Origin: Pseudomonadota bacterium
GTDB lineage: Bacteria > Pseudomonadota > Gammaproteobacteria > Steroidobacterales > Steroidobacteraceae
Direction of reading: 5' to 3'
NCBI GenBank assembly: GCA_025356815.1
Contig: JANXQL010000047.1
Span: 1-40,220, forward strand
Length of the DNA stretch: 40,220 bases
The notes beneath the pieces are model-generated. The model was not told the origin of the DNA. It was given only the letters and a program-made list of their open reading frames with translations, and searched no databases. How positions within the stretch are numbered: position 1 is the first letter of the stretch; each line of letters opens with the position of its first letter. Below, one piece after another: positions 6,564 to 24,597 of this stretch. The translations under genes and the position numbers were made by a program.

Positions 6564-6580
6564 ATGAGGGGGTCCAAGGG

Positions 6581-7594
6581 TTGGCTGCAACACTCAGAGA
6601 CGTCGCGCGCGAAGCGCAGGTATCGACCGCGACCGTATCTCGCGTCATCAACGGCCACGGCAACGTGACCAATGCGACGCGTGCGCGGATCCTCGGCATC
6701 GTCGAGCGACTGAACTACGTCCCCGACAGCGCTGCCCGCAGCCTGAGCACCGGACTCACCAACACCATCGGCGTGCTGCTGCCGGACCTGCACGGCGAGT
6801 TCTTCTCGGAGATCATCCGCGGCATCGACCAGGCCGCACGCCGTCGCGGCCTGCACCTGCTGCTGTCAGGCGTGCATGGCTCGGCCGCGGAAGCCGCGCT
6901 CGCGATCCGCGCGCTCAAGGGGCGCGTTGATGGCCTGTTGATCATGTCGCCGTACGCGGACTCCGAGTTCCTCGCCGACCACTCCGCCGGCGACACGCCG
7001 GCGGTGCTGATCAACTCACCCGTCCGCGGCCACAGCCACTCGTCGCTGTGCGTCGACAACCGCGGCGGCGCAGGCGCGATGGTCGAACACCTCGCCAGCG
7101 TCGGCCACCGCCGGATCGCGTTCGTCGCAGGTCCGAAGGACAACTTCGACGCCACCGAGCGCCTCGCCGGCTACTGCGAGGCGGTTGCGCGCCTCGGTCC
7201 CGGCGTGCGCGAGTTCGTGGTGCCGGGCGACTTCTCCGAGGCCTCCGGCTACCGCGCCGCACAGCGGTTGATGACGCTGGACGAGCGCCCCGACGCGGTG
7301 TTCGCCGCCAACGACATGACAGCGCTGGGCTGCCTGCTCGCCTTCAAGGAGGCGGGCGTCTCGGTCCCGGGGGACGTCGCGCTGGCCGGCTTCGACGACA
7401 TCCCGCTGGCGCGCTTCGTCGCGCCGGCACTGACCACCGTGCGCGTGCCGATGGCGGAACTTGGCGCGCGCGCGCTCGACGGGGTCGCGGACGCGGTTGG
7501 CGCGCCCGGCGCGACGCCCAGCTCGACCGAGATCGTGGCCACAGAACTGGTCGTGCGTGCCTCCAGTGGCGCGCGCGCACGGATGACCGCTTGA
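6581..7594 (+). CDS. LacI-family transcriptional regulator of the sugar locus
   Basis: A 337-residue repressor. The N-terminal helix-turn-helix is textbook LacI: TLRDVAREAQVSTATVSRVI, then the hinge NYVPDSAARSLSTG. The periplasmic-binding-like sugar domain follows, with TIGVLLPDLHGEFFSEIIRGI, VDGLLIMSP, SVGHRRIAFVAG, PDAVFAANDMTALG and VALAGFDDIPLARFVAPALTTVRVP. The start is TTG 6581, eight bases after GAGGGGG; an upstream TTG at 6560 lies inside the operator. It sits between the two arms of the locus and probably represses both until an oligosaccharide is bound. The inducer is likely a sophoro-oligosaccharide or glucose, inferred from the enzymes nearby. Confidence 0.93.
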   Translation: MAATLRDVAREAQVSTATVSRVINGHGNVTNATRARILGIVERLNYVPDSAARSLSTGLTNTIGVLLPDLHGEFFSEIIRGIDQAARRRGLHLLLSGVHGSAAEAALAIRALKGRVDGLLIMSPYADSEFLADHSAGDTPAVLINSPVRGHSHSSLCVDNRGGAGAMVEHLASVGHRRIAFVAGPKDNFDATERLAGYCEAVARLGPGVREFVVPGDFSEASGYRAAQRLMTLDERPDAVFAANDMTALGCLLAFKEAGVSVPGDVALAGFDDIPLARFVAPALTTVRVPMAELGARALDGVADAVGAPGATPSSTEIVATELVVRASSGARARMTA

Positions 7595-10600: not shown

Positions 10601-10694
10601 GAACGGGCTGTTCTCTGGCGGTTCCTACAGTCCCAATGGCAACATCAACGGCACGACCCGGCAGTTCCGGCTGACCTTTGGCGCGAAGTTCTGA
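7689..10694 (+). CDS. TonB-dependent outer-membrane receptor with carboxypeptidase-regulatory domain
   Basis: A 1001-residue outer-membrane transporter. A signal peptide ends near AWAQ-SAEA. Residues about 31-100 form a carboxypeptidase-regulatory-like beta domain (ATAGTEVTARNVATGAVRHTTTSADGNYVLVGLPAGVYRV). The plug follows from about residue 110 (LADITVKSSRLVEV, VPQLTRNFLEFADVVPGI, SIRGGAQNENSVNVYIDGV). A long barrel ends in FRLTFGAKF with the terminal Phe needed by the BAM machinery. This Oar-like architecture is common in Xanthomonadales and Caulobacterales glycan loci. The start ATG 7689 has a G-rich ribosome site. The neighbouring enzymes suggest it imports a beta-1,2-glucan or its oligomers; nothing in the receptor itself fixes the ligand. 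Confidence 0.93.
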   Translation: MKNRLHRTNKILATAIATMLAVGAAPSAWAQSAEATLRGHATAGTEVTARNVATGAVRHTTTSADGNYVLVGLPAGVYRVDAGAGTERVVTVNVATTSVLDFAGNAAALAPETTLADITVKSSRLVEVRTSEVGTIVSLDQIQTVPQLTRNFLEFADVVPGIVFNVNEKGKTSIRGGAQNENSVNVYIDGVGQKGYVRSGVSGQTDSTQGNPFPQLAIGEYKVITSNYKAEYDQISSAAVTAETKSGTNEFHGEAFATYTNQSMRAETPGELAAGQKTDSKTKEFGASVGGPIMQDTMHFFLAYEGKRYNTPTTVTANGGVPADVVAALPAAALAQLGPLSIPFQENLYFGKLDWEPTADDRIVFDMKIRKETSLGDGVGSGKTASAALQTSNNDDRYALRWEHASQNYFNELLFTFEDAFFQPQGANGGVNGAVYTYKNSNNDSTILETDGVDPRSTQNKGQKGWAIADNITWSHLNWITGDHTVKAGVKFKSVKLTAKDAESGYNPIFFYDVTPAGTAAIPYKAVFAAVVSGLPPVAETKDRQFGIYLQDDWAVDNKLTLNLGVRYDIEMNPSYLDFVTPQVVRDSMDTIINTDTGLTYGQSLGLSSDPNTKININDYLSNGHNRKAFKGEFQPRIGFSYDLFEDQRHVVFGGIGRAYDRDLYDYLQLEITKIAISEPSVLFETADHSCAGQGNCFAWNPNYLNGPAGVQALVAGQPGEINLMNNKLKTPYSDQFSLGIRNKVGDWNTSAAISRILSKDGLQFILGNRRPNGDFFGPEPWGGIGQPWTFGPPGIAGNLILANNAIETRSTSFLLSADKPYSEESGWGATLAYTFTDATQNRDINEHYVFDGVSAKAYPFIRSNAAAKHRFVGTATVKGPWDTVIGAKLTIATPIPKNDIQCYWTADLFPSGGPCLPAAVVAHGLGIRTLDMQLTKNFRVYQNVKAYLRVDALNVFNAKNLVDYDIQHASNGLFSGGSYSPNGNINGTTRQFRLTFGAKF

Positions 10695-10791: not shown

Positions 10792-12303
10792 ATGAACGAC
10801 ACCTCACTGCGGTCGATCGTCGTCGTTGGTGGCGGCACGGCCGGATGGATGAGCGCGGCTGCGCTGTGCAAGGCCTACGGCGAGAAGATCAGGATCCGGG
10901 TCGTCGAATCCGACGACATCGGCATCATCGGCGTCGGTGAGGCCACCGTCCCGCACCTGAAGACCTTCAACGAGGCCCTCGGCATCAACGAAGTCGACTT
11001 CGTCAAGGCCGTGCAGGGCACGTTCAAGCTCGGCATCCAGTTCTGTGACTGGGGCCGGATCGGCGACAAGTACATCCACGGCTTCGGCGTCATCGGCCAC
11101 GACTACGGCATGCTGCCGTTCCACCAGTACTGGTTGAAGCTGCACCAGGCCGGCGAGGGGGGCGATCTGGGCGACTATTCGCTGCACACGCTGGCCGCGC
11201 CGCGCGGCAAGTTCATGACTTCGGCGAGCGACGTGCCGCCGACCTCGCCGCTGGCGCACATTGCCCACGCCTACCACTTCGACGCCGGCCGCTACGCCCG
11301 CTTCCTGCGCACCTACGCCGAGGCCCGCGGCGTGGTGCGCACCGAGGGCGAGATCGTCGGCGTCAATCTCAGGCCGGACGACGGCTTCGTCGACTCGATC
11401 GTGATGAAGAACGGCGAGCGCATCGAGGCCGACCTGTGGATCGACTGCTCGGGCTTTCGCGGGCTGCTGATCGAGGGCGCCCTGAAGACCGGTTACGAGG
11501 ATTGGAGCCACTGGCTACCGTGCGACCGCGCGATGGCCGTGCCCTGCGCCAAGGTGGGCCCGCCGACGCCCTACACGCGCTCCACCGCGCGCGACGCCGG
11601 CTGGCAGTGGCGGATCCCGCTGCAGCACCGTACCGGCAACGGCCTGGTGTATTCCAGCGCGTTCATGAGCGACGAGGAGGCGGCGCGCGTCCTGCTTTCG
11701 AACCTCGATGGCGCGCCGCTCGCCGAGCCGCGGCCACTGAAATTCACGACCGGCAAGCGCCGCAAGGTCTGGAACAGGAACGTGGTCGCGATCGGTCTTG
11801 CCAGCGGCTTCATGGAACCGCTGGAGTCGACCAGCATCTTCCTGATCCAGACCGGCATCGGCAGGCTCGTGAGCCTGCTGCCCGACCGGCGCATGAATCC
11901 CGTCGTCGTCGAGCGCTACAACGCGCAGGTCGCGTTCGAGTACGAACGCATCCGTGACTTCCTGATCCTGCACTACAAGGCGAACCAGCGGCAGGAGCCG
12001 TTCTGGCGGCAGTGCGCGGCGATGTCGATCCCGGACCACCTGCAGCAGACCCTCGAGCTGTTCATGGACTCCGGCCGCTTCTTCCGCGACGGCGACGAGA
12101 TGTTCGCGATCGTCAGCTGGGTGCAGGTGATGATCGGCCAGAATCTTGTTCCCACCGCTTACCACCCGGCCGTCGACATGGTGCCGGAGGCCGAAATCCG
12201 CGAGTTCGCCGCCAGCGCCCGCGGCGTGATCAGGAACTGCGTCGAGGCGATGCCGACCCACGAGCAGTTCATCGCCCGTCACTTCTCGGCACCGGCGCCA
12301 TGA
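10792..12303 (+). CDS. Tryptophan-halogenase-like flavoprotein
   Basis: A 503-residue member of the flavin-dependent halogenase family, which uses FADH2, oxygen and halide to make a hypohalous intermediate. Seen: the FAD-binding VVVGGGTAGWMSA at the N-terminus, VGEATVPHLKTF, Lys79 in GTFKLGIQF (the catalytic lysine position of PrnA), W271-Q-W273-R-I-P (the WxWxIP motif) and Glu345 in EPLESTSI. All hallmark residues are present, so the protein should be active. No signal peptide is seen. Genes of this kind recur next to TonB receptors in glycan loci of Xanthomonadales and Caulobacterales without a known role. Its stop overlaps the start of the GH144 gene, tying it to sugar use rather than to a secondary-metabolite cluster. 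The substrate is unknown. Confidence 0.88.
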   Translation: MNDTSLRSIVVVGGGTAGWMSAAALCKAYGEKIRIRVVESDDIGIIGVGEATVPHLKTFNEALGINEVDFVKAVQGTFKLGIQFCDWGRIGDKYIHGFGVIGHDYGMLPFHQYWLKLHQAGEGGDLGDYSLHTLAAPRGKFMTSASDVPPTSPLAHIAHAYHFDAGRYARFLRTYAEARGVVRTEGEIVGVNLRPDDGFVDSIVMKNGERIEADLWIDCSGFRGLLIEGALKTGYEDWSHWLPCDRAMAVPCAKVGPPTPYTRSTARDAGWQWRIPLQHRTGNGLVYSSAFMSDEEAARVLLSNLDGAPLAEPRPLKFTTGKRRKVWNRNVVAIGLASGFMEPLESTSIFLIQTGIGRLVSLLPDRRMNPVVVERYNAQVAFEYERIRDFLILHYKANQRQEPFWRQCAAMSIPDHLQQTLELFMDSGRFFRDGDEMFAIVSWVQVMIGQNLVPTAYHPAVDMVPEAEIREFAASARGVIRNCVEAMPTHEQFIARHFSAPAP

Positions 12304-13748
12304 TGAAGAGGCTATGGCGCCGCACCGCGGCGCTCGCACTCGCGGCGGTCCTGTTCGGGCTCGGCGCTGCGGCCTGCGCCGGCGGCTCCGGCGCAGTGCC
12401 CGCCGTGGTGCCTGCGGCGCCGGATACGAGCGCGGTGCTCGACGAGCTCGAGCACCGCTCGTTCCAGTGGTTCTGGGTCTACGCCAACCCCGTCAACGGA
12501 CTGGTACCGGACCGCGCCCCGAGCCGCTCGAACTCCTCGATCGCCGCGGTCGGCTTCGCACTGACCGCCTACCCGGTTGGCGTCGAGCGCGGCTGGATCA
12601 CGCGAGCGCAGGCGCTGGCGCGGACCCGCACGACGCTGCGCTTCTTCCACGACGCGCCGCAGGGACCGGAGGCGACCGGCATGAGCGGTTACCACGGTTT
12701 CTACTACCACTTCCTCGACATGGTGAACGGACAGCGTGTCGACAACACCGAGCTGTCGACGATCGATACGGCGCTGCTGATGGCGGGCGTGCTGACCGCG
12801 GCGAGCTACTTCGACCGCAGCGATCCGCTGGAAGCGGAGGTGCGCGCGCTCGCGGACGATTTGTACACGCGCGTCGACTGGGCATGGGCGGCAGATGCGA
12901 ACGGCCTGGTCGCGATGGGGTGGAAGCCCGACACCGGCCTGTATCCGGCGGGCTGGCGCGGATACAACGAGGCCATGATCCTGGTCGTGCTAGGACTCGG
13001 CTCGCCCACCCATCCGCTGCCGGACGGTGCGTGGGCGGCGTGGGCGGCGAGCTACGAGCTCAGCTGGAAGAGCGAGTACGGCCAGACCCACTTGTCGTTC
13101 CCGCCGCTGTTCGGCCACCAGTACTCGCACGTCTGGGTCGACTTCCGCGGCATCCAGGACCCGTACATGAAGTCCAAGGGCAGCGACTACTTCCAGAACA
13201 GCCGCGCGGCGACCTACGCGCAGCAGGCCTACGCGATCGCCGACCCGCTCGGTTGGAAGGACTATGGGGCGACGCTGTTCGGCATCACCGCCTGCGATGG
13301 CCCGGGTCCCCTGAGCGCGACCTACGAGGGCCAGAGTCGCAGCTGGTTAGGCTACGCGGGGCGTGGCATGGGCGGGGCCCGGACGTACGATGACGGCACG
13401 CTCGCGCCCACCGGCGTGGTCGCGTCGATTGCGTTCGCCCCCGAGATCGTCGTGCCTGCGATCCTGCAGATGCAGCGTCGCTACGGCGCGAATCTGTACT
13501 CGACCTACGGCTTCGTGGATGCATTCAACCCGAGTTTTCCGGGATCATCGCCGCCGCAGGGCCGCGTGGTGGCGGGGCTGGGCTGGTTCGATACGGACTA
13601 CCTCGGCATCGACCAGGGGCCGATCGTCGCGATGCTGGAGAACTACCGCAGCGACCTGCTCTGGCGGCTGCTGCGCGGCAGTGCTCCGATCCGCGCGGGC
13701 CTGACGCGGGCCGGCTTCACCGGCGGCTGGTTGGCGGCAACGCCCTGA
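12300..13748 (+). CDS. GH144-type endo-beta-1,2-glucanase lipoprotein (glucoamylase-like domain)
   Basis: A 482-residue exported protein whose signal ends in GAAAC, a likely lipobox. The mature part matches the PF10091 'glycoamylase-like' (alpha/alpha)6 family, the domain of GH144 endo-beta-1,2-glucanases. Marks include RSFQWFW, NGLVPDRAPS, SGYHGFYYHFLDM, NTELSTIDTALLMAG, GHQYSHVWVDFRGIQD, SWLGYAGRGMGGARTYDDGTLAPTG, and GLGWFDTDYLGIDQGPIVAMLENYRS. GH144 enzymes cut linear beta-1,2-glucan to short sophoro-oligosaccharides. The start ATG 12300 overlaps the halogenase stop (ATGATGA) and the stop overlaps the binding-protein start. The adjacent GH94 and ABC genes strengthen the beta-1,2-glucan assignment. 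Other families carrying this domain exist, so the exact bond specificity is inferred. Confidence 0.82.
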   Translation: MMKRLWRRTAALALAAVLFGLGAAACAGGSGAVPAVVPAAPDTSAVLDELEHRSFQWFWVYANPVNGLVPDRAPSRSNSSIAAVGFALTAYPVGVERGWITRAQALARTRTTLRFFHDAPQGPEATGMSGYHGFYYHFLDMVNGQRVDNTELSTIDTALLMAGVLTAASYFDRSDPLEAEVRALADDLYTRVDWAWAADANGLVAMGWKPDTGLYPAGWRGYNEAMILVVLGLGSPTHPLPDGAWAAWAASYELSWKSEYGQTHLSFPPLFGHQYSHVWVDFRGIQDPYMKSKGSDYFQNSRAATYAQQAYAIADPLGWKDYGATLFGITACDGPGPLSATYEGQSRSWLGYAGRGMGGARTYDDGTLAPTGVVASIAFAPEIVVPAILQMQRRYGANLYSTYGFVDAFNPSFPGSSPPQGRVVAGLGWFDTDYLGIDQGPIVAMLENYRSDLLWRLLRGSAPIRAGLTRAGFTGGWLAATP

Positions 13749-15016
13749 TGGGGCAGCTCCTGCGCCTGGGGCTCGTGCTGCTGCTCGCCGTGCTCGGCGG
13801 CTGCGGCCGGGACAGCGGGCGCAGCGAGCTGCGCTTCTGGGCGATGGGGCGCGAGAGCGAGGTGCTGGCCGAACTCATCCCCGAGTTCGAGCGCCTGCAC
13901 CCCGGGGTGGTGGTGAAGATCGAGCAGCTGCCGTGGACCGCGGCGCACGAGAAGCTGCTGACCGCGGTGGCAGGCGACTCCACGCCGGACCTGTGCCAGC
14001 TCGGCAACACCTGGATTCCGGAGCTGGCGGCGCTGAAGGCGCTCGCGCCGCTGGACGCGCGCATCGCAGCCTCGGCGGTCGTGCGGCCGGACGACTACTT
14101 TCCCGGCATCTGGGCCACCAACGTCATCGGCGGCGCGACCTATGGCATCCCGTGGTACGTCGACACGCGCCTGTTGTTCTATCGCAAGGACCTGCTCGCC
14201 CAGGCGGGCTTCGCGTCCGTGCCCGGTACCTGGGCCGGCTGGGAGCGCGCGCTCGCGGCGATCACGGCGCGCGGCGCGGGCCGGCGCTTCGGCGTGCTGC
14301 TGCCGCTGAACGAATACGAGCCGCTGCTGGCGTTCGCGCTGCAGCAGCGGACCGGCCTGCTCAAGGACGATCTCACTCGCGGCAACTTCGACAGCCCCGA
14401 GTTTGAGCGCACGCTCGGCTTCTACGCCGGGATGTTCGCGCACGGCTACGCGCCGCCGGTGACGAATTCGCAGATCGCCAACGTCTGGACCGAGTTCGGG
14501 CGCGGCTACTTCGCCTTCTACATCAGCGGCCCGTGGAACATCGGTGAATTCCGCCGCCGCCTGCCGCCGGCGCTCGCAGGCCAATGGGAGACCGCGCCGC
14601 TGCCGGGCCCCGACGGCCCCGGCGCCTCCATCGCCGGCGGCGCGAGCCTGGCGGTGTTCCGCCGCTCCCGCCACGCGGCGCTCGCCTGGCAGCTGGTCGA
14701 GTACCTGTCGCGACCGGAGGTGCAGGTGCGCTTCCACGCGCTGACCGGCGACCTGCCGGGCCGGCGAGCGGCCTGGGCGGCTGCAGGGATCGCAGGCGAC
14801 TCGCACACGGCGGCGTTCCGCGACCAGCTCGAGCGCGTCCGGCCGACGCCGCCGGTGCCGGAGTGGGAGCAGATCGTCACCGAGATGCGCATCCTTGCCG
14901 AGCACGTCGTGCGCGGCGAGATGAGCGTCCACGACGGCGCGCTGGAGCTGAACCGCCGCGCCGACCGGATGCTTGCCAAGCGCCGCTCGCTGGTGGCCGA
15001 AGGCGTGCGGCTGTGA
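13748..15016 (+). CDS. Sugar ABC transporter substrate-binding lipoprotein
   Basis: A 422-residue family 1 extracellular solute-binding protein (MalE/UgpB type). The lipobox LGGC puts the lipid on Cys19. Typical features: LRFWAMGRESEVLAELIPEFERLHPGVVVKIEQLPW, the hinge GIPWYVDTRLLFYRKDLLAQAG, a later YFAFYISGPWNIGEF, and the C-terminal QLVEYLSRPEVQVRF. Its ATG shares one base with the stop of the GH144 gene. In this setting it probably captures sophoro-oligosaccharides in the periplasm. The binding specificity cannot be read directly. Confidence 0.93.
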   Translation: MGQLLRLGLVLLLAVLGGCGRDSGRSELRFWAMGRESEVLAELIPEFERLHPGVVVKIEQLPWTAAHEKLLTAVAGDSTPDLCQLGNTWIPELAALKALAPLDARIAASAVVRPDDYFPGIWATNVIGGATYGIPWYVDTRLLFYRKDLLAQAGFASVPGTWAGWERALAAITARGAGRRFGVLLPLNEYEPLLAFALQQRTGLLKDDLTRGNFDSPEFERTLGFYAGMFAHGYAPPVTNSQIANVWTEFGRGYFAFYISGPWNIGEFRRRLPPALAGQWETAPLPGPDGPGASIAGGASLAVFRRSRHAALAWQLVEYLSRPEVQVRFHALTGDLPGRRAAWAAAGIAGDSHTAAFRDQLERVRPTPPVPEWEQIVTEMRILAEHVVRGEMSVHDGALELNRRADRMLAKRRSLVAEGVRL

Positions 15017-15888
15017 AGCGCAGCACGGTCGGCCTGCTGTTCGCGCTGCCGGCGCTGCTCGTGATCGGCGTGTTCTTCTTCGTGCCGGTGCTGATCGCGC
15101 TGTGCCTGTCGGTCACCGACTTCGACATCTATGCGCTCGCCGACCTGTCGAACCTGCGCTGGGTGGGGCTGCGCAACTACACCGAGCTGTTGTCGACGCC
15201 GCTGTTCTGGCGAGCGCTGGGCAACACGCTGTACTTCACGCTGCTGGGCGTGCCGCTGTCGATCGCGACCTCGGTCGGCGCGGCGCTGCTGGTCAACGCC
15301 AGGGCCGCGCGCTTCAAGGGCGTCTTTCGCACCGCGCTGTTCGCCCCGGTGGTGACCACCGTGGTCGCGGTCGCGATCATCTGGCGCTACCTGCTGCACA
15401 CGCGCTATGGCCTGGTGAACTACGGGCTCGGCCGGCTCGGCATCTCGCCGATCGACTGGCTGGGCGATCCGCACTGGGCGATGCCGGCGATCGTCCTGTT
15501 CTCGGTCTGGAAGAACTTCGGCTACAACATGGTGATCGTGCTGGCGGCGCTGCAGCAGGTTCCCGAGGACCTCTACGAGGCGGCCAGCCTCGATGGCGCG
15601 AGCGCCGTGCAGCAGTTCCGCCACGTGACCCTGCCGGCGCTCGCGCCGACGCTGCTGTTCGTCAGCATCCTGACGATGGCCGGCTACTTCCAGCTGTTCG
15701 CGGAGCCTTATGTGATGACGCAGGGCGGGCCCGCGCAGAGCACGCTGTCGGTGCTGTACCTGCTGTACGAGGAGGGCTTCAAGTGGTGGAACCTCGGGCG
15801 CGCCTCGGCGGTCGCGTTCGTGCTGTTTCTGATGATGTTCGCCGTCACGCTCGTGCAGCTGCGGCTCGGCCGCGAGGCCGTCTCGTGA
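15013..15888 (+). CDS. Sugar ABC transporter permease (MalF/UgpA type)
   Basis: A 291-residue inner-membrane permease with six hydrophobic segments, starting LLFALPALLVIGVFFFVPVL. The ATPase-docking EAA loop is present as YEAASLDGASAVQQFRHVTLP. The start is GTG 15013, overlapping the binding-protein stop by 4 bases (GTGA); frames reaching further upstream read through the binding-protein gene out of phase. It forms the channel with the next gene product and needs the ATPase encoded at 5193-6302. Confidence 0.94.
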   Translation: MKRSTVGLLFALPALLVIGVFFFVPVLIALCLSVTDFDIYALADLSNLRWVGLRNYTELLSTPLFWRALGNTLYFTLLGVPLSIATSVGAALLVNARAARFKGVFRTALFAPVVTTVVAVAIIWRYLLHTRYGLVNYGLGRLGISPIDWLGDPHWAMPAIVLFSVWKNFGYNMVIVLAALQQVPEDLYEAASLDGASAVQQFRHVTLPALAPTLLFVSILTMAGYFQLFAEPYVMTQGGPAQSTLSVLYLLYEEGFKWWNLGRASAVAFVLFLMMFAVTLVQLRLGREAVS

Positions 15889-16706
15889 GCGGTCGCGGCC
15901 ACGCCTGGCTCGTCAACGGCACGCTCGTGCTGCTTGCGCTTGCAACCGTGTTTCCGCTGCTGTGGATGCTGTCGGCGTCGCTGATGGCGCCGGGCGAGTC
16001 GGCCAGCTACCCGCCGCCGCTGGTGCCCGCGCACCCGACCCTGGACAACTTTCGGCTGCTGGTGTCGCGCGCCGGCCTCGGCTGGCACTTCCTCAACAGC
16101 GTGGTCATCTCGGCGTCGGCGACGCTGCTGGCGCTGACGTTCAACGTCAGTGCCGGCTATGCGTTCGCCAAGCTCGAGTTCGCGGGGCGGGCGCGGCTGC
16201 AGCGGCTGCTGGTGTCGGGCCTGGTCATCCCGGCGCAGGTAGCGATGCTGCCGCTGTTTCTGCAGCTGAAGGCGCTCGGGCTCGTCAATACCCTGCCCGG
16301 CGTGCTGGTGCCGTCGCTGGCCGGCATCTTCAGCATCTTCCTGGTCCGGCAGGCGGCACTGGCGATCCCCGACGAGCTGCTGGATGCCGCGCGCATCGAC
16401 GGCGCATCGGAAGTCACGATCTTCCGCCGCATCGTGCTGCCGCTGCTGACCCCGATGCTGGTCACGCTGGCGGTGTTCACGTTCCTCGGGGCCTGGAACG
16501 ACTTCCTCTGGCCGCTGATCGTGCTCAACGACAACGAGCGCTACACGCTGCCCGTCGCGCTCGCGGCGCTCTCGCGCGAGCACGTGCAGGATAGCGAGTT
16601 GATGATGGCCGGGTCGGTCGTGACGGTGATCCCGGTGCTGGCGCTGTTCCTTGCGCTGCAGCGTTACTACCTGCAGGGCCTGATGGCCGGTGCGGTGAAG
16701 GGATGA
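15885..16706 (+). CDS. Sugar ABC transporter permease (MalG/UgpE type)
   Basis: A 273-residue permease with six predicted membrane segments. It carries FPLLWMLSASLM near the start, the EAA loop LDAARIDGASEVTIFRRIVLPLLTP, and the MalG-like ending FLALQRYYLQGLMAGAVKG. The start is GTG 15885, overlapping the previous stop by 4 bases. Its own stop overlaps the next start (ATGA at 16703), so translation is probably coupled along the chain. Confidence 0.94.
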   Translation: MSGRGHAWLVNGTLVLLALATVFPLLWMLSASLMAPGESASYPPPLVPAHPTLDNFRLLVSRAGLGWHFLNSVVISASATLLALTFNVSAGYAFAKLEFAGRARLQRLLVSGLVIPAQVAMLPLFLQLKALGLVNTLPGVLVPSLAGIFSIFLVRQAALAIPDELLDAARIDGASEVTIFRRIVLPLLTPMLVTLAVFTFLGAWNDFLWPLIVLNDNERYTLPVALAALSREHVQDSELMMAGSVVTVIPVLALFLALQRYYLQGLMAGAVKG

Positions 16707-19700
16707 AGCGCCTGCGCGGCGGGCTTGCGGGCCTGCTGTTGTGCGCGGGCGGCGCGCTCGCCGCCGAGCCTGCGCAGTCGCTCGACCCGCTGCCACGTGC
16801 CGGCGTCTGGCGCGGCGTCGCCTCCGACGAGGTCGGCGCGACGCTCATCGAGACGGACGATGGCGTCGCGCTGCAGTACGACTTCCACCACCGTGCCGGC
16901 TACGCCGGCGCCGAGCGGAGCCTCCCGATCGACTGGCCCGCGAACTTCGACCTGGAAATCGCGCTCGCAGGCGAGCTCGGCGGCAACGACCTCGAGGTCA
17001 AGTTCGTCGACGACAGCGGCGAGAATGTCTGGTGGGCGCGCCGGCGGGCGTTCAGCGCGCCGGCGGGCGGCGTGCTGCGCCTGCACCGGCGCGAGCTGTC
17101 GTTCGCGTGGGGACCGGCAGCGGATCGCACGCTGCGCCATACGGCGCGCCTGCAACTGGTGGTCAATGGCGTGCGCGGCGGCAGCGGCAGCCTTGCCATC
17201 GGCGCGCTCAAGCTCGTGCCGCGCGAGCTGCCGCCGGCCGTGCCGCTGGCGGCGCTTGCCTGCGACGGCGCCGACGCGGTGCCGCTGCCCGATGGGATCG
17301 CCGCCCACGACTGGCGCTGCGAGCCGGGCCGCGCACCGTGCACGCTGACCCTCGACTGGCGCGAGCGACGCGAATTCGGCGCGCTGCGCCTGCAGTGGGC
17401 GGCGGGGTTGCGTCCGGCGCGCTACACGCTCGACGGCTCCGCCGACGGCGCGCTCTGGCGCGTGCTGCGCGCGGTCGAGGCGGCCGGAGAGGGCGCGGAC
17501 TGGCTGTGGACGCCCGCTGCCGAGTACCGCTTCCTGCGCCTCACGGTGCCCGCCGGCGCGGCGCGCCTGACGCGCCTGGACGCGGATCCGCCCGAGACCG
17601 GCGAAGAGCAGAACCGCCTCATCGCGCGCGTCGCCGCCGAACGGCCGCGCGGCGCGTTCCCGCGCGGCACCACCGAGCAGGGGTACTGGACGCTGCTCGG
17701 CGTCGACAACGGCGCGCACTCGGCGCTGCTGTCGGAGGATGGCGCGCTGGAGACCGACGTCGGCGGCCCGAGCGTCGAGCCGTTCGTCGTCGAGGACGGC
17801 AGGGTGGTGACGTGGGCCGGGGTCCGGACGAGCCAGTCGCTCGCCGGCGGTTACCTGCCGATGCCGTCGGTTGAGCGGCGCGCGCCGAACTGGCGGCTGT
17901 GGGTGGATGCGTTCGCCGATGCCGACGACGGTGGACGCCTGTACGCACGCTACCGGCTGACCAACACCTCGAACGTGCCGCGGCGGCTGCGGCTGCTGCT
18001 TGCGCTGCGACCGTTCCAGGTCAACGGCCCGGCGCAGTTCCTCGCCGTCACCGGCGGCGTCGCGCCGCTGCCGCACCTCGATTGGGACGGCCAGTCGCTG
18101 CATGCGGGGCCGATCACCGTCACGGCGCGGCCGCGGCCCGTGTCGGTCGGCCTTTACGGCTTCGAGCGGCAGGAGGTGCCCGAGGCGCTCGCCACCGCAC
18201 CGGCGCAGCCGGCGGCGATCCGCCAGCAGTGGACCGATCCTGCCGCGCTGGGCAGCGGCGTGCTCGGCTACGACCTGAGACTCGCCCCCGGTGCGAGTCG
18301 CGCGGTGGAGATCCTCGTGCCGTGGGGCGCGACGGCCGTGGCGCCGCTCACGGCCGGCCAGCTCGGTCGCGCCGAGGCGCGGGTGCGCGCGCGCTGGCGG
18401 GCGCGCCTGAACGCGGTGACGCTCGCGGCGCCGGACTCCGTCGAGGCGACCGCGCTTGCCGCGGCGCTGCGCAGTGCGCATGCGCACCTGCTGATGTCGC
18501 GCCAGGACGACCTGCTGCGCCCCGGCACGCGCTCCTACGCGCGCTCGTGGATCCGCGACGGCGCCATGATGAGTGCGGCGCTGCTGCGCCTCGGCGAGCG
18601 GCGCGCACCAGAGGACTACCTGCGTCGCTATGCCACGGCGCTGTTCGACAACGGCAAGGTGCCGTGCTGCCTGGACGCGCGCGGCTCGGACCCCGTGCCG
18701 GAGCACGACAGCGGCGGCGAGTTCCTGTACCTGGCCGGCGAGGTGCTGCGATTGACGCCGGATCGGGCCCGCGTCGAGGCCGTCTGGCCGCAGGTGCGCG
18801 CGGCGGTCGGCTATCTGGACCTGCTGCGCGCGCAGACGCGCGACGCAACCGTCGCCGGCGCCGGGGCGTACCGCGGGCTGCTGCCGCCGTCGATCAGCCA
18901 CGAGGGCTATTCGGCGAAGCCGATGCACTCGTACTGGGATGACTTCTGGGGCCTGCGCGGTTACACCGACGCCATCGACATCGCCGCCACGCTCGGCCAC
19001 GACGCCGAGCGCGACCGCTGGCGCCTGGCGCGCGCGCAGTTTGCCGCCGACGTCGCCGCGAGCATCGCCCGCGAGATGCACGAGCGCGGCCTCAGCTTCG
19101 TGCCGGGGGCCGCGGAGCTGGGCGACTTCGACGCGACCTCGACGACCATCGCGCTCGCGCCCGGCACCGGCGGCGACGACCTGCCGCGCGCGGCGCTGGA
19201 GGGGACGTTCGAGCGCTACTGGCAGGAGTTCAGCGCGCGGCGCGACGGCACGCGGGCGTGGCAGGTCTATACGCCATACGAGTGGCGATTGGTCGGCGCC
19301 TTCGTGCGCCTCGGTCAGCGCGAGCGCGCGCTCGCGACGCTCGCCTGGCTCTTCGCCGACCGCCGGCCGCTCAACTGGAACCAGTGGCCGGAGGTCAGCG
19401 ACCGCGAGCCGCGCCGGACGCGCTTCCTCGGCGACCTGCCGCATGGCTGGGTCGCGTCGGATTTCATGCGCTCGGTGCTCGACCTGTACGCCTACGAGGA
19501 CGAGACGGCGCAGGCGCTCGTGCTCGGTGCGGGGCTCAAGGCCAGCTGGCTGGACGGGCGCGGACTGCGCGTGCGCGGCCTCGTCACCCGCTACGGCACG
19601 CTCGGCTACCGCGTGCGGCGCGTCGCCGGCGGGCTCGAGGTCGAACTGCTCAGCGGGCCACGACCGCCGCCGGGCGGTTTCCTGCTGCGACTGCCCGGCG

Positions 19701-19810
19701 TGCCCACGGACGGCACGGCGCTGATCAACGGACGATCCCATCCCTTCCACGACTCGACGCTGCGAGTGATCGCGGCGCCGGCGCGGATCTACCTGCCGCT
19801 GTCGCCATGA
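16703..19810 (+). CDS. Large secreted protein, putative (alpha/alpha)6 glycosidase with sugar-binding modules
   Basis: A 1035-residue exported protein I cannot place in a characterised enzyme family. A signal peptide ends near ALAA-EPAQ. Residues about 30-175 look like a galactose-binding/CBM11-like jelly roll (LEVKFVDDSGENVWW). About 200-300 resembles a discoidin (F5/8C) module. About 305-590 is beta-rich with YARYRLTNTSNVPRRLRLLLALRPFQV, like the N-terminal super-sandwich of GH94/GH65-type enzymes. About 600-930 is helical and rich in acidic motifs: SWIRDGAMMSAALLRLG (D618), EHDSGGEFLYLAGE (near 670), YWDDFWGLRGYTDAIDIA (near 745), NWNQWPE (near 895). This order resembles a barrel glycoside hydrolase. 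Both ends overlap neighbouring genes by 4 bases. It probably acts on the same glucan in the periplasm, for example on chain ends, branches or cyclic forms; that is inference. Confidence 0.7.
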   Translation: MKRLRGGLAGLLLCAGGALAAEPAQSLDPLPRAGVWRGVASDEVGATLIETDDGVALQYDFHHRAGYAGAERSLPIDWPANFDLEIALAGELGGNDLEVKFVDDSGENVWWARRRAFSAPAGGVLRLHRRELSFAWGPAADRTLRHTARLQLVVNGVRGGSGSLAIGALKLVPRELPPAVPLAALACDGADAVPLPDGIAAHDWRCEPGRAPCTLTLDWRERREFGALRLQWAAGLRPARYTLDGSADGALWRVLRAVEAAGEGADWLWTPAAEYRFLRLTVPAGAARLTRLDADPPETGEEQNRLIARVAAERPRGAFPRGTTEQGYWTLLGVDNGAHSALLSEDGALETDVGGPSVEPFVVEDGRVVTWAGVRTSQSLAGGYLPMPSVERRAPNWRLWVDAFADADDGGRLYARYRLTNTSNVPRRLRLLLALRPFQVNGPAQFLAVTGGVAPLPHLDWDGQSLHAGPITVTARPRPVSVGLYGFERQEVPEALATAPAQPAAIRQQWTDPAALGSGVLGYDLRLAPGASRAVEILVPWGATAVAPLTAGQLGRAEARVRARWRARLNAVTLAAPDSVEATALAAALRSAHAHLLMSRQDDLLRPGTRSYARSWIRDGAMMSAALLRLGERRAPEDYLRRYATALFDNGKVPCCLDARGSDPVPEHDSGGEFLYLAGEVLRLTPDRARVEAVWPQVRAAVGYLDLLRAQTRDATVAGAGAYRGLLPPSISHEGYSAKPMHSYWDDFWGLRGYTDAIDIAATLGHDAERDRWRLARAQFAADVAASIAREMHERGLSFVPGAAELGDFDATSTTIALAPGTGGDDLPRAALEGTFERYWQEFSARRDGTRAWQVYTPYEWRLVGAFVRLGQRERALATLAWLFADRRPLNWNQWPEVSDREPRRTRFLGDLPHGWVASDFMRSVLDLYAYEDETAQALVLGAGLKASWLDGRGLRVRGLVTRYGTLGYRVRRVAGGLEVELLSGPRPPPGGFLLRLPGVPTDGTALINGRSHPFHDSTLRVIAAPARIYLPLSP

Positions 19811-22800
19811 ACATGATCAACACCGATCCCCCACCCGTCCCGACCGCCGTCCCCTGCTGGCTCGGCAACGGCGTCTACGACGCCGTGCTGACCCCGACCG
19901 GGACGGGATTTTCGATGTACGACGGCTACCTGCTGAGCGCCTGGGCCGACGACCCCTGCGAGGACGAATACGGCGTCACGCTGTACCTGCGCGACCTCGC
20001 GACGGGGTCTGCGTGGAGCGCCTGCGGCGCGCCGCTGCCGGGGACCGCGGCGCGGCAGGTCACCGCGTCCGCCGACGCGGTCACGATCGACAGCGTGCAC
20101 GGGTCGATCGCCGCCTGCGTGCGCGTCGAGGTGCTCGCGCTCGCCGGTGCCGAGCGCCGTCGCCTGACGCTGACCAATCGCGGCGCGCAGGCGCGCGAGC
20201 TCGAACTGACCGGCTACGTCGAGGTGGTGCTCAACTCGGCCGCGGCGCAGGACGGGCACCCGGCGTTCAGCAAGCTGTTCGTGCAGACCCGCTATCGACC
20301 CGCGGCGCAGCTGCTGATCGCGACGCGTCGGCCGCGCGCGAACGCCGAGCGTCATCCGGCGCTCGGGCTCGCGCTGCTCGGTGGCGGCGTGCTCGGCTAC
20401 GAAACGGACCGGGTGCGCTTCGTCGGCCGCGGCCGGACGGTGCGCGAGCCGCTCGCACTGACGCAGCCGCTGGCCGGCACGCTGGGCAACGTGCTCGACC
20501 CCGTGCTTGCGCTGCGCACCCGCGTGGCGCTCGCGCCGGGCGAGTCGCGCACGCTCAGCTACGTGCTCGTCGCCGCGGCCGATGTCGACGGCCTCGAGGC
20601 GGCGCTCGCGGCCGCCACGGGGGAGGCTGCGCTTGCGCCTGCGCTGCCGCTGGACGGATCGAGCGCGTGCGTGCCGGAACGCCTCGGCACACTGCTGCAG
20701 GCGACGCGCGGTGCCGCGCGGGTCGGGTACCAGATCCCGCCCGCCACGGCGACGCTGCCGCTTGCGGCGCAGACGCAGGCCCACCCCGGCAACGGCTTCG
20801 GGGAGTTCGTCGACGGTGGCCGCAGCTACCGGATCCGGCTCGCCGCCGACGCCTCCGGCCGGCTGCGCCTGCCGCCGATGCCGTGGAGCAACGTGATCGC
20901 GAACGAGTCCTTCGGGCTGATCGCGAGCGAGAAGGGCAGCCTGTCGAGCTTTGCCGGCAACAGTCGCCTGCACCGGCTCACGCCCTGGCGAAACGATCCG
21001 GTCACCGACCCGCACGACGAGGCGCTGTACCTGCGCGATCAGGCCAGCGGCGCGTACTGGTCGCTGCTGCCGGGTCCGGCACCGGCCGGCGCCGAGTACG
21101 AGCTGCTGCACGGCCAGGGCTGGTCGAGCTGGCGGCACGAGGCGCAGGGCCTGCATCACGAGGTGACGCTGTTCGTGCCGCGGCACGATCCGCTGCGGAT
21201 CGCTCTGGTGCGGCTGACCAACCGCGGACCCGCCGAGCGCTCGCTCGCGCTGTACAGCTACCAGCGCTGGGTGCTCGGCGGCACGCCGGCCGAGAGCCGC
21301 GCGACGCTGGCCGTGGCGGTCGATGTCGGCCGTGCCGCGGTGCTGGCCCACAACACCGCGGCCGGTCCGTTCGCTCACCGCATCGCCTTCGCCGCGTTTG
21401 CAGGCGGCGGCCCGGTGGACGCGACCGCCGATCGGGAGTCGTTCCTGGGCCGACCCGGTTCGCTGTCGGCGCCGCGTGCGCTGCTGGACGGCGGGCCGCT
21501 GCTCGCCCAGGCGGAAGGCGGCGGCTGCGCGGCGCTGCGCACGCGCCTGAACGTCCCCGCCGGTGGCGAGGTGGTCGTCGCCGTGCTGCTCGGCGAAGCG
21601 GATGCGGTCGAGGCGATCGACGCGCTGCTCTACCGCTACCGCCAGACGGGGGCCGCCGAGGCGGCGCTTGTCGAGGTGCGCGACTGGTGGCGGCGGACGC
21701 TGTCGGCGACCCAGGTGAGCACGCCTGCGCCCGAGATCGACCTGATGGTCAACGGCTGGCTCGGCTACCAGACGCTCGTCTGCCGGCTGTGGGCGCGCAG
21801 CGCCTACTATCAGTCGGGCGGCGCGTACGGGTTCCGCGACCAGCTGCAGGACGCCGCAGCACTTGCGCAGACGCTGCCGGAGCTGCTGCGCGCACAGCTG
21901 CTCGAGAACGCCGCGCACCAGTTCGTCGAGGGCGACGTGCTGCACTGGTGGCACACGCCTGCAAGCGAGGGCATCCGCACCCGTTTCGCCGACGACCTGG
22001 TGTGGCTGCCGTGGCTCGCCGCGCACTACGTGCGCGTCACCGGCGACAAGGCGCTGCTCGAGGTGCGCGTGCCGTTCGTCGGCGGCCCCGTCCTCGACGA
22101 CGGCGAGAACGAACGCTACTTCGTGGCGCAGCGGGTCGCGACAGAGGCGACTGTCTACGGCCATTGCGTGCTGGCGCTCGAGCGGGCGATGACCCGCGGT
22201 GCCCATGGCCTGCCGCTGTTCGGGGCCGGCGACTGGAACGACGGCATGAACCGCGTCGGACACGAGGGCCGTGGCGAGAGCGTCTGGATGGCGTTCTTCC
22301 TGCACGCTGCGATCGGCGACTTCCTGCCACACGTCATCGCACGCGGCGACAGCGCGCTGGTGGCGCGCCTGCGCGCCTATCGCGAGGCGATGGCACTGGC
22401 GGCCAACGATGCCGGCTGGGACGGCGGCTGGTACCGGCGCGGCTACTACGACAACGGTACGCCGCTCGGTTCGCAGGCGAGCGACGAGTGCCGCATCGAC
22501 GCGCTGGCGCAGGCGTGGGCGGTCATCTCCGGGGTCGCGCCGGCGGCGCGGCAGCAGCTCGCGCTGGATGCGCTCGAGGCGCACCTGGTCAGCACCGAGG
22601 ACCGACTGATCCGGCTGCTGACGCCGCCGTTCGAGCACACGCCCGAGGATCCGGGCTACATCAAGGGCTATGTCGCGGGCGTGCGCGAGAACGGCGGCCA
22701 GTACACGCACGCGGCGCTGTGGGTGGTGCGGGCACTGGCCGAGGCCGGCCGGCGCGAGCGGGCGGTCGAGCTGCTGCGCATGCTCAGCCCCGTTGCGCAC

Positions 22801-23226
22801 ACCGGCAGCGCCGCCGACGTCGAGCGCTACAAGGTCGAGCCGTACGTGGTCGCGGCCGACGTCTACGGCGTCGCGCCGCACGTCGGGCGCGGCGGCTGGA
22901 CCTGGTACACGGGCTCTGCCGGCTGGATGCTGCGCGTGGCGCTGGAGTCGGTGCTGGGGCTGGGCATCGAAGCCGGGCGCGAGCTGATCCTCGCGCCGCG
23001 CGTGCCGGACGCATGGCCGGGCTTCGAGCTCGACCATCGCCGCCCCGACGGCACCAGCTATCGGATCTCGGTGGGCAACCCCACGCGCTGCGCCGAGACA
23101 GTCGTCGCCGCGCGCCTCGACGGCGTGCCGCTCGCGGTGCGGGACGGCGTGCTGCGCTTGCCGCTGGCGGCCGACGGCGCAAGCCACCAGGTCGAGGTCA
23201 CCCTCGGCGCCAGCCTCCGCGTGTAG
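19807..23226 (+). CDS. GH94 phosphorylase, probable 1,2-beta-oligoglucan phosphorylase (SOGP-like)
   Basis: A 1139-residue cytoplasmic enzyme without signal peptide. The C-terminal half closely follows the GH94 part of cyclic beta-1,2-glucan synthase NdvB: SAYYQSGGAYGFRDQLQD, EGDVLHWWHTP, RTRFADDLVWLPW, GAGDWNDGMNRVG (Asp812 at the GH94 general-acid position), GTPLGSQASDECRIDALAQAWAVISG, DPGYIKGYVAGVRENGGQYTHAA, and YKVEPYVVAADVY with HVGRGGWTWYTGSAGW. The N-terminal half has beta-sandwich repeats. There is no glycosyltransferase domain or membrane segment, so it is not a glucan synthase. Stand-alone proteins of this size and pattern include 1,2-beta-oligoglucan phosphorylases, which release alpha-glucose 1-phosphate from sophoro-oligosaccharides. 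Overlap with the previous gene (ATGA) and the GH144 neighbour support this. Other GH94 specificities are possible. Confidence 0.85.
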   Translation: MNMINTDPPPVPTAVPCWLGNGVYDAVLTPTGTGFSMYDGYLLSAWADDPCEDEYGVTLYLRDLATGSAWSACGAPLPGTAARQVTASADAVTIDSVHGSIAACVRVEVLALAGAERRRLTLTNRGAQARELELTGYVEVVLNSAAAQDGHPAFSKLFVQTRYRPAAQLLIATRRPRANAERHPALGLALLGGGVLGYETDRVRFVGRGRTVREPLALTQPLAGTLGNVLDPVLALRTRVALAPGESRTLSYVLVAAADVDGLEAALAAATGEAALAPALPLDGSSACVPERLGTLLQATRGAARVGYQIPPATATLPLAAQTQAHPGNGFGEFVDGGRSYRIRLAADASGRLRLPPMPWSNVIANESFGLIASEKGSLSSFAGNSRLHRLTPWRNDPVTDPHDEALYLRDQASGAYWSLLPGPAPAGAEYELLHGQGWSSWRHEAQGLHHEVTLFVPRHDPLRIALVRLTNRGPAERSLALYSYQRWVLGGTPAESRATLAVAVDVGRAAVLAHNTAAGPFAHRIAFAAFAGGGPVDATADRESFLGRPGSLSAPRALLDGGPLLAQAEGGGCAALRTRLNVPAGGEVVVAVLLGEADAVEAIDALLYRYRQTGAAEAALVEVRDWWRRTLSATQVSTPAPEIDLMVNGWLGYQTLVCRLWARSAYYQSGGAYGFRDQLQDAAALAQTLPELLRAQLLENAAHQFVEGDVLHWWHTPASEGIRTRFADDLVWLPWLAAHYVRVTGDKALLEVRVPFVGGPVLDDGENERYFVAQRVATEATVYGHCVLALERAMTRGAHGLPLFGAGDWNDGMNRVGHEGRGESVWMAFFLHAAIGDFLPHVIARGDSALVARLRAYREAMALAANDAGWDGGWYRRGYYDNGTPLGSQASDECRIDALAQAWAVISGVAPAARQQLALDALEAHLVSTEDRLIRLLTPPFEHTPEDPGYIKGYVAGVRENGGQYTHAALWVVRALAEAGRRERAVELLRMLSPVAHTGSAADVERYKVEPYVVAADVYGVAPHVGRGGWTWYTGSAGWMLRVALESVLGLGIEAGRELILAPRVPDAWPGFELDHRRPDGTSYRISVGNPTRCAETVVAARLDGVPLAVRDGVLRLPLAADGASHQVEVTLGASLRV

Positions 23227-23247: not shown

Positions 23248-24597
23248 ATGGCCATCGACAGCAGGTTTCCGGACGGCTTCCTGTGGGGCGCGGCGACCGC
23301 CGCCTACCAGATCGAGGGCTCGCCGCTGGCCGACGGCGCGGGCCCGAGTAACTGGCACCGCTTCGCGCACACGCCGGGACGCGTGCGCGACGGCGACACG
23401 GGCGATGTCGCCTGCGACCACTACCGGCGCTGGCGCGAGGACATCGCGCTGATGCGCGAACTGGGTCTGACGGCGTACCGCTTCAGCATGTCGTGGAGCC
23501 GCTGGTTTCCCGAGGGCAGGGGCCGGCGGAACGCCGCCGGCGCCGGCTTCTACGACCGGCTGGTCGACGGCCTGCTCGAGGCCGGCATCGAGCCGCTGGT
23601 CACGCTCTACCACTGGGACCTGCCGGCGGCGCTGGACGACCGCGGCGGCTGGCTGAATCCGGCCATCGCCGGCTGGTTCGCCGACTACGCGAGCGCCGCA
23701 TTCCGGCTGCTCGATGGCCGCGTGAAGAAGTGGGTGACGCTGAACGAGCCATGGGTGGTCGCCGATGGCGGCTATCTGCACGGCGTGCTCGCGCCGGGCC
23801 ATCGCAGCGCGTACGAGGCGTCGATCGCCTCCCACCAGCTGCTGCGCGCGCACGGCGCGGCGGTCGCCGCCTACCGCGCCGAGGGTCGGCACGAGATCGG
23901 CCTGGTGGTGAACCTCGAGCCCAAGGTCCCGGCGTCGGCGTCGTCGGCGGATGCGCAGGCGGCGGCGCGGGCGGACGCCTACATGAACCGCCAGTACCTC
24001 GATCCTCTCTACAGGCGCGCCTATCCGTCGCAGCTGGCCGAGATCTACGCCGACGCCTGGCCGACGTGGCCGGCGTCCGACTTCGACGACATCGCCCGGC
24101 CGATCGATTTCCTCGGCATCAACTACTACACGCGCGGCGTCACCCGCCACGACCCGACGCAGTGGCCGCTCGCGGCGTCGAACGTGCTGCAGCCGGGCTC
24201 GACCTACACCGAGACAGGTTGGGAAGTCTGCCCGGCCGCGTTCACGGCCCTGCTGCAGCGCGTGGCGGCCGACTACGGCAACCCGCCCTTGTATGTCACC
24301 GAGAACGGCGCGGCGTTCTACGACCCGCCGGTTGCGCACGACGGACGGGTGTGCGATCCGCTGCGGGTCGACTATCTGCACGGGCACCTGGCCGCCGTGC
24401 GCGCCGCGCTCGACGCCGGCGTCGACCTGCGCGGCTACTTCGCCTGGTCGCTGCTGGACAACTTCGAGTGAACGCACGGCTACTCCAAGCCCTTCGGGCT
24501 CGTGCACGTCGACTACGCGACGCAGACCCGCACGCTGAAGGACAGCGCGCGCTACTACGCCGCCGTGATCGCCCGCCATGGGCTGACGGCGCCCTGA
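23248..24597 (+). pseudogene. GH1 beta-glucosidase interrupted by one in-frame TGA
   Basis: The frame opens at ATG 23248, 21 bases after the GH94 gene, and reads as a family 1 beta-glucosidase: DGFLWGAATAAYQIEG, the acid/base in TLNEPW (Glu167), LGINYYTRG, and the nucleophile in VTENGAAF (Glu352). At codon 408 (24469-24471) a TGA follows DNFE, exactly where nearly all GH1 proteins have Trp (DNFEW). The same frame then continues for 41 codons with [18 protein letters not shown] and KDSARYYA, the normal GH1 ending, to TGA at 24595. A single TGG-to-TGA change explains it. A protein stopped at 407 residues lacks the aglycone-side Trp and the last barrel segments and is probably inactive. Read error, recent nonsense mutation or UGA readthrough remain open. 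Its role would be hydrolysis of sophorose or other beta-glucosides. Confidence 0.88.

Follow-up and report, generated by a model that had tools for sequence, protein, structure and literature searches.

A secreted six-hairpin protein family with GH15-like active-site residues in proteobacterial beta-1,2-glucan operons, a candidate for opening an alpha-bond

Four groups of osmoregulated glucans are distinguished, and an alpha linkage is described for one of them, a cyclic beta-1,2-glucan with a single alpha-1,6 bond, which Ralstonia, Xanthomonas and Rhodobacter produce (excerpts of PMC10514313 and PMC11842490). In Xanthomonas the alpha-1,6 ring is closed by XccOpgD, a member of glycoside hydrolase (GH) family 186 (PMC11842490, in part). 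On the degradation side, XCC2207 (PDB 8xul) is a GH144 beta-1,2-glucanase according to the available portion of PMC12102758; the mining of gene clusters that contain GH144 and phosphorylases has yielded several beta-1,2-glucan enzymes, and reviewers of the field call for more such mining (PMC11842490, in part). Within the accessible portion of the literature on the 6-cyclized glucan, we found no enzyme that opens its alpha-1,6 bond. Here we analysed a 40,220-nucleotide stretch (the window; contig JANXQL010000047.1 of a Steroidobacteraceae genome, GCA_025356815.1) in which positions 16703-19810 (+) encode a 1035-residue predicted secreted six-hairpin glycosidase candidate. We describe by computation the family to which it belongs, its operon, its predicted fold and the equivalence of its residues to those of GH15. 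The protein is very probably a glycosidase and quite probably acts on an alpha-bond; that this bond is the alpha-1,6 ring closure of cyclised beta-1,2-glucans is a tentative proposal, somewhat short of even chances.

A protein family of GH144 operons

The open reading frame comprises 1035 codons and a TGA stop. It shares ATGA (16703-16706, 4 bases) with the upstream permease, whose TGA stop lies at 16704-16706, and ATGA (19807-19810, 4 bases) with the downstream GH94 gene, which starts with ATG at 19807-19809. The original prediction, made from the letters alone, had placed the protein between permease and phosphorylase with such overlaps, and the coordinates bear this out. Matches were present in 12 of 98 genomes of a relatives set and in 40 of 398 genomes of the phylum, both including the window genome, which itself gave one match to the family. 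They were strong and long in 9 and 12 genomes, respectively, and most of the others were confined to the CBM32-like module or to some short stretch. The nine related genomes carried their long matches without internal stops (three more had weak or partial matches only), so the reading frame is real and not an artefact of GC-rich DNA. Two antisense frames, 16667-19750 (-) of 1027 residues and 19789-24579 (-) of 1596 residues, are expected by-products of high G+C coding DNA.

Relatives are encoded at 426 loci of the genome collection, 80 of which were kept for family and operon counts (81 sources with the window). Hosts of the kept loci include Brevundimonas, Duganella, Massilia, Dokdonella, Lysobacter, Luteimonas and Sphingomonas, among others. 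An open frame of at least 992 residues was found at 79 of the 80 loci, the exception (L020, 815 residues) starting at a contig end. This is a real, widespread and uncharacterised proteobacterial family, and the distribution, the fold model and the missing library matches described below support the earlier suggestion of a candidate new glycosidase family.

The gene neighbourhood was conserved. Neighbours called among the 81 sources were GH144 (69), an ATP-binding cassette (ABC) sugar-binding protein (70), a TonB receptor (62), a LacI regulator (59), GH1 (47), a MalK-type ATPase (34), GH94 (19) and a halogenase (6); many loci end at contig ends, each cluster was named after scanning one or two of its members, and the calling drops some permeases, the window's second one among them. 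GH144 was present upstream in all 66 sources with at least 6 kb of upstream DNA, in line with the original view that the protein belongs to the pathway, and wherever both genes were called (69 of 69 sources) they shared a strand, at a distance of 2139-3361 bases by called frame ends. In the phylum sample, GH144 occurred in 12 of 12 strong-hit genomes versus 36 of 396 overall (P 5e-14, window genome included, kinship uncorrected); among these 12, G381 stands apart in that its sole member is a distant one and does not adjoin GH144. In the relatives set it occurred in 9 of 9 strong-hit genomes, with 20 of 96 genomes GH144-positive overall (kinship uncorrected). No alpha-glucosidase was among the annotated recurrent neighbour clusters, nine minor clusters (5-12 loci each) being unannotated.

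Four records of the plasmid collection matched the family. In the three annotated ones the automatic NCBI name is 'discoidin domain-containing protein', and no literature was found that joins the NCBI product names with '2-glucan'. The fourth, from Xanthomonas sacchari (L257:8367-12927), has the same operon upstream of a matching stretch that lies in three pieces without a listed gene; Entner-Doudoroff and glucokinase genes come after it. On a Croceibacterium plasmid the gene stands directly 3' of a 'glucoamylase family protein', which its Pfam name led us to take as GH144; the two genes overlap by 4 bases, and no ABC genes intervene. A Methylosinus match (31.6% identity) has no GH144-type gene in its stretch, for which the gene table is incomplete, and therefore the wider family reaches beyond the GH144 operon. 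A 'glycoside hydrolase family 15 protein' (L259:2448-3926) lies about 3.6 kb upstream of this distant relative.

Two further groups were recognised. L128, L129 and L132 represent a second, distant full-length group (28-32% identity) outside the GH144 operon, and genomes G191, G399 and G490 carry both groups. A short sister family of about 750 residues (L124:7163-9403, L125:8182-10530, L126:8478-10706 and L127:7537-9834) keeps the catalytic residues and has no binding modules. Its neighbours, identified by eye, are a small membrane protein at 4 of 4 loci and a glycosyltransferase-like gene in L125 and L127; they point to no substrate, and two scanned members gave no Pfam match.

Predicted architecture and relation to known families

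The original prediction described two sugar-binding-like modules, a sandwich and a helical domain, and Pfam matches of homologues together with predicted models agree with this description (all features below are on the + strand unless marked). Residues 1-21 (16703..16765; MKRLRGGLAGLLLCAGGALAA) look by eye like a Sec signal peptide with an AxA-type end, and most of the 43 listed homologues (42 distinct sequences) have hydrophobic N-termini, again by eye. Model strands place an N-terminal beta-sandwich at residues ~25-175 (16775..17227), weakly similar to CBM11, CBM_AftD and CBM4: Pfam found CBM_AftD in 9, CBM_11 in 7 and CBM_4_9 in 4 of the 43 homologues and none of them in the window protein. 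It is followed by a CBM32-like F5/8 type C module (residues ~185-295, 17255..17587): all 43 homologues match Pfam F5_F8_type_C with E no higher than 0.1 (best 3.5e-22), and the match of the window protein, at E 0.0017, is below the curated cut-off. A profile search retrieved CBM32-type structures (4zz5 at 4.5e-15), and by its F5/8 type C domain the module is of CBM32 kind. The models then predict a beta-supersandwich (residues ~297-545, 17591..18337), an (alpha/alpha)6 barrel of twelve helices (residues ~575-930, 18425..19492; model ma2df587efca7) and a C-terminal beta-sandwich (19490..19798). The AlphaFold model of the full-length protein (43 sequences) had a predicted local distance difference test score (pLDDT) of 89.6 and a predicted template modelling score (pTM) of 0.90; that of the catalytic part, ma2df587efca7 (49 sequences), reached 92.1 and 0.93. 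The predicted (alpha/alpha)6 barrel with its invariant acidic residues supports the helical domain with acidic motifs of the original prediction.

Searches of Pfam, NCBIfam and PDB sequences gave nothing significant for the catalytic part of the window protein. The earlier statement that no characterised family matches thus stands for the window protein; it gives way for some homologues, which have weak six-hairpin hits, two of them above a Pfam cut-off. By sequence, the window member is without library assignment and a few homologues just cross the thresholds of other six-hairpin families.

Profile-profile comparisons used GH15 in the sense of glucoamylase, glucodextranase, isomaltose glucohydrolase and dextran dextrinase (clan GH-L). 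Thirty GH15 sequences were divided into the set used (17), a second set of longer sequences (11) and two short ones that were omitted; among the 17, L154 is a wrong reading frame and the source of most deviations in the residue tally. An unnamed, heterogeneous six-hairpin set (23 rows, 19 distinct) and, for GH144, the operon's own 69 sequences were also compared. For the helical barrel, the 17-sequence GH15 set was the nearest named profile (E 1.4e-8), followed by GH78 (1.2e-4), GH133 (one sequence, 5.6e-4), GH37 (0.029), GH144 (0.063) and GH94 (0.17); reversed-alignment controls with four sets gave E 0.32-0.87. In the Foldseek search against PDB, the full-length model retrieved the GH15 dextran dextrinase first (E 8.5e-15), then GH94, GH116, GH78 and GH63. 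The template modelling (TM) scores of the catalytic part, relative to the query, were 0.59 for dextran dextrinase, 0.57 for GH94 and 0.51 for GH116. None of the solved families is a near match, so the chemistry cannot be read from the fold by itself. In a BFVD fold search, most of the named proteins among the 50 matches listed came from phages or viruses and had binding-type domains; a viral glucan 1,4-alpha-glucosidase in row 40 reached TM 0.65 of its own length at E of only 1.4e-4.

The protein shares with GH15 the supersandwich and (alpha/alpha)6 barrel, the motifs Y-x-x-x-W-x-R-D and D-x-x-G-E, the acid and base loops, and G-D/N-x-P-H/Q after the base. It differs in several respects: the PF00723 threshold is not reached (the window protein gives no hit, and of the 43 homologues a single one gives a hit, at E 0.052); the NCBIfam model oligosac_amyl, which we take to be of GH15 type, gives 10.6 bits (E 0.15) on the window protein; identity between the 1035-residue protein and dextran dextrinase is about 12%; the acid motif is SHEGY here and G-I/L-W-E in GH15; and two N-terminal binding modules and the beta-1,2-glucan operon setting are found here. 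Against the criteria of clan GH-L, the residue set agrees, the fold search has no preference for GH15/GH65 over GH94/GH116, and one of the two GH15 sets was unaligned.

Other six-hairpin families are also alike in fold. GH94, which comprises cellobiose and chitobiose phosphorylases and a cyclic glucan synthase domain, shares the overall fold and stands at the top of the catalytic-domain fold search, but its PF06165 and PF17167 models matched none of the 43 members at E 0.1 and its helical-domain profile was not significant. GH116 (beta-glucosidase and the exo-beta-D-arabinanase ExoMA2) shares the overall fold at TM about 0.5 with 10-15% identity in the listed fold-search rows. DUF608, presumably the Pfam model of GH116, does not appear among the 18 families recorded at E 0.1 for the 43 members, and a DUF608 search for a GH116 set returned too few and too weak sequences to align. 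GH144 of clan GH-S, the operon partner, has an (alpha/alpha)6 barrel in common with the protein; an HMM-HMM comparison with its profile gave no alignment (E 0.06-0.11), and membership of clan GH-S was rejected. Weak hits to Bac_rhamnosid6H in 26 and GDE_C in 5 of 43 members, models that we assume to stand for GH78 and GH133, and the W-x-R-D and acidic D shared with one GH133 sequence recall these families; we rejected assignment to either, as the window protein has neither hit and the profile E values are 1e-4 and 6e-4 at best.

Active-site residues and the bond they may cleave

The residues were compared in 94 sequences: the window protein, 84 loci and nine others (four short sisters, three distant full-length members and two operon members), of which 92 were distinct at 99% and 81 at 90%. 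Residues Y612, R614, R618, D619, E667, D669, E734, W745, D746, D808, E897, D911, H914 and W916 were present in 94 of 94, and this invariance holds down to 18% identity (short sisters, 18-22%). All four acidic motifs quoted earlier are located in the protein, at 616 (WIRDG), 667 (EHDSGGE), 744 (YWDDFW) and 891 (NWNQWPE). The two carbohydrate-binding-like modules would suit a non-catalytic glucan-binding scaffold, an explanation we find hardly credible: across the 94 sequences the catalytic part has 34 invariant columns, and of the eight that are Asp or Glu, six lie in barrel loops.

What is new here is that profile alignment and barrel topology place these invariant residues on the catalytic set of GH15 alpha-glucosidases. 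Y612-A-R-S-W-I-R-D619 (18536..18559) aligns with Y-R-Y-C-W-I-R-D of GH15, R618-D619 pairing with its WIRD pair, and would contribute the base-holding Tyr and the Arg-Asp of subsite -1. Y612 precedes D619 by seven residues, which is the spacing of the base-holding Tyr in GH15 sequences, and D619 lies in alpha2. E667-H-D669-S-G-G-E673 (18701..18721) aligns with Q-x-Q-x-D-V-Y-G-E, with D669 paired to D381 and E673 to E385; position 673 is Glu in 79 and Gln in 15 of the 94 sequences. The proposed general base, E897 of NQWPE (19391..19393), is invariant, lies in the alpha11-alpha12 loop of the model and pairs with the GH15 base E593, and the G-D-x-P-H that follows it pairs with G-N-x-P-Q. The proposed general acid, E734 of SHEGY (18902..18904), is invariant and lies in the alpha5-alpha6 loop; we equate it with the GH15 acid because topology and spacing agree, the distance from the Arg-Asp pair being 115 to the acid and 278 to the base, versus 124-128 and 288-293 in 14 of 15 measured GH15 sequences. 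D746 of YWDDFW (18938..18940), also invariant, may be an alternative acid or a sugar contact.

In the available text of PMC12446779 on dextran dextrinase, the GH15 acid is in the alpha5-alpha6 loop and the base in the alpha11-alpha12 loop. In TtGA an Asp in helix alpha2 bonds O6 of the -1 glucose and a Tyr between alpha1 and alpha2 holds the general base (PMC8626586, in part), and the acid and base of GDE occupy GH15 positions (PMC4837477, in part). In the predicted structure the Arg-Asp pair is at the start of alpha2 with the Tyr seven residues before the Asp, and the presumed acid and base are in these loop positions, so placed that a catalytic role is predicted. In the known clan GH-L enzymes a GH15-like base Glu is on the beta face, and we therefore infer an alpha-linked substrate; the active-site residues match those of enzymes that cut alpha-linked glucose and may serve to cleave the single alpha-bond by which some bacterial ring sugars are closed.

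Several observations weigh against this reading. The unnamed six-hairpin set equals GH15 in the helical-barrel comparison (E 3.7e-8), and the 11 longer sequences of the second GH15 set gave no alignment (E 0.14). When the whole catalytic region is compared, GH94 (E 1e-9) outscores GH15 (1.6e-8), and in the Foldseek search with the catalytic part GH94 and GH116 come first (5.5e-17) with dextran dextrinase eleventh (1.1e-14). One family member (G128) exceeds the Bac_rhamnosid6H cut-off (28.0 bits vs 24.5) and another (G187) the GDE_C cut-off (27.6 bits vs 21). In the active site, E734 was not paired with the GH15 acid in the automatic alignment, the acid loop was not aligned residue by residue, D746 is as invariant as E734, and D669 follows Arg-Asp at a spacing of 50, versus 76-80 in 14 of 15 GH15 sequences. 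In the relatives set, 11 of the 20 GH144-positive genomes are without the enzyme, which is therefore not needed wherever GH144 occurs, and no alpha-linked sugar is evident anywhere in the pathway.

The GH94 profile match over the whole catalytic region and the leading GH94 and GH116 fold matches just given also speak for an exo-beta-1,2-glucosidase or sophorosidase that trims the ends of linear or opened beta-1,2-glucan in the periplasm and whose GH116- or GH94-like barrel has been recruited to beta-bonds; the identified enzymatic partners GH144, GH94 and GH1 likewise all come from beta-acting families. We consider this unlikely, given that the helical-domain match to GH94 is not significant, that the GH94 Pfam models match none of the 43 members, and that the invariant Tyr, the Arg-Asp and the Glu of the alpha11-alpha12 loop follow GH15.

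Beta-1,2-glucans as such have no alpha-bond. An alpha-type site in a beta-1,2-glucan operon therefore makes the single alpha-1,6 bond a candidate substrate. The alpha-bonded glucose of the ring has free O4 and O6 and carries the chain on O2, which fits recognition by the Arg-Asp pair, assumed here to contact O4, if the pocket opens at O2. The original prediction had named ends, branches or rings of beta-1,2-glucan as targets; rings are the likeliest of the three, and the predicted alpha-bond chemistry departs from its idea of a plain additional beta-1,2-glucosidase. A clan GH-L-like alpha-glycosidase could also act on some other alpha-linked part of, or attachment to, beta-1,2-glucan, or on an unrelated alpha-glucoside that enters through the same TonB/ABC system. 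The residue evidence is shared by this explanation, and L128, L129, L132 and the short sisters L124-L127 keep the residues outside the operon, which means that the chemistry is not bound to a single substrate. We judge it improbable in view of the constant GH144 gene upstream, and no second alpha-bond in beta-1,2-glucans is described in the portions of the literature examined. A third possibility, a transglycosylase (the kind of enzyme that dextran dextrinase is within GH15) that would open or re-form cyclic glucan instead of hydrolysing it, is suggested by the top full-length fold match; dextran dextrinase is a retaining transglucosidase with GH15 residues (PMC12446779, in part). Nothing found in the sequence separates transfer from hydrolysis, and the catabolic operon favours hydrolysis, which makes transfer very improbable.

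The operon of the window and the proposed pathway

Returning to the favoured hydrolysis of the ring's alpha-bond, the genes of the window suggest a route. They run on one strand in the order LacI regulator, TonB receptor, halogenase-like protein, GH144, sugar-binding protein, two ABC permeases, the 1035-residue protein, GH94 and GH1. The LacI-type regulator (6560..7594; Pfam LacI, Peripla_BP_3) and the TonB-dependent receptor (7689..10694; OMP_b-brl_4, TonB_dep_Rec_b-barrel) precede a tryptophan-halogenase-like flavoprotein (10792..12303; Pfam 5.4e-196) that is optional in the operon. This flavoprotein sits between the TonB receptor and GH144 and was called in 6 of the 81 sources. The GH144 beta-1,2-glucanase (12300..13748; PF10091 3.1e-75) has XCC2207 (8xul) as its best PDB match at 3e-168. 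It is followed by the ABC sugar-binding protein with a lipoprotein-like start, LGGC (13748..15016; SBP_bac_1), permease 1 (15016..15888, start approximate; BPD_transp_1) and permease 2 (15885..16706, putative GTG start from the sequence; BPD_transp_1 on the containing frame). Downstream of the 1035-residue protein are a GH94 phosphorylase of cyclic-glucan-synthase type (19807..23226; PF17167 1.6e-104, PF06165 4e-116), whose best PDB match is the phosphorylase region of the cyclic beta-1,2-glucan synthetase 8rf9 (1.1e-232), and a GH1 beta-glucosidase (23248..24471; PF00232 7.8e-133, TIGR03356 above cut-off). No signal peptide is visible by eye at the GH94 N-terminus, whereas one is visible at that of the 1035-residue protein. 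Elsewhere in the window are an 844-residue frame at 30417-32951 without a Pfam match at E 0.01, accompanied by a 1081-residue antisense frame, and a ParE-type toxin homologue at 28809-29177 (-).

We infer alpha-specificity, inversion, substrate and order of steps as follows. Beta-1,2-glucans would come in through the TonB receptor, and GH144 would cut their beta-1,2 bonds. In the periplasm the 1035-residue enzyme, proposed founder of a secreted six-hairpin (alpha/alpha)6 glycosidase family with a GH15/clan GH-L type active site, would hydrolyse an alpha-glucosidic bond with inversion. Glu734 would serve as the acid and Glu897 as the base, the latter kept in place by Tyr612, while Arg618-Asp619 would grip the glucose at subsite -1. 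The bond cleaved would be the single alpha-1,6 linkage of alpha-1,6-cyclised beta-1,2-glucans, before or after ring cutting by GH144. The resulting oligosaccharides would pass through the ABC importer to GH94 and GH1 in the cytoplasm.

OpgG and OpgD had no match in 15 of 15 genomes of the window's genus, some of them incomplete, so uptake of foreign glucan is likelier than trimming of the organism's own glucan by that route. OpgG/D occurred in 2 of 9 enzyme genomes versus 8 of 11 GH144-only genomes (P 0.07), and 7 of the 9 enzyme genomes belong to one genus; given this P value and the single-genus bias, we drew no conclusion about a link between the enzyme and absent osmoregulated periplasmic glucan synthesis.

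No description of the family was found in the accessible portion of the open-licence literature on beta-1,2-glucan degradation and beta-1,2-glucanases, and a closed-access, unpublished or CAZy-only record is possible. Of the literature from 2025 on about GH195-GH200, only PMC13063451 (diatom mannan) concerns glycans, by title and abstract. BglS of Xanthomonas citri was considered and set aside as a different gene, XAC1448, according to the available part of PMC9108719.

The family is a regular part of proteobacterial GH144 clusters. Xanthomonas, Ralstonia and Cereibacter have alpha-1,6-cyclised beta-1,2-glucans as their osmoregulated glucans. If the proposal is right, an enzyme that opens the alpha-1,6 bond would complete the degradation pathway, and would provide an analytical tool for alpha-1,6-cyclised glucans, which matter in plant disease. 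It is possible, if still doubtful, that the family would then be a new GH family and the first dedicated to breaking the alpha-1,6 bond of the cyclised glucans, a counterpart to the GH186 cyclase, by which soil and water Proteobacteria may eat the periplasmic glucans of others.

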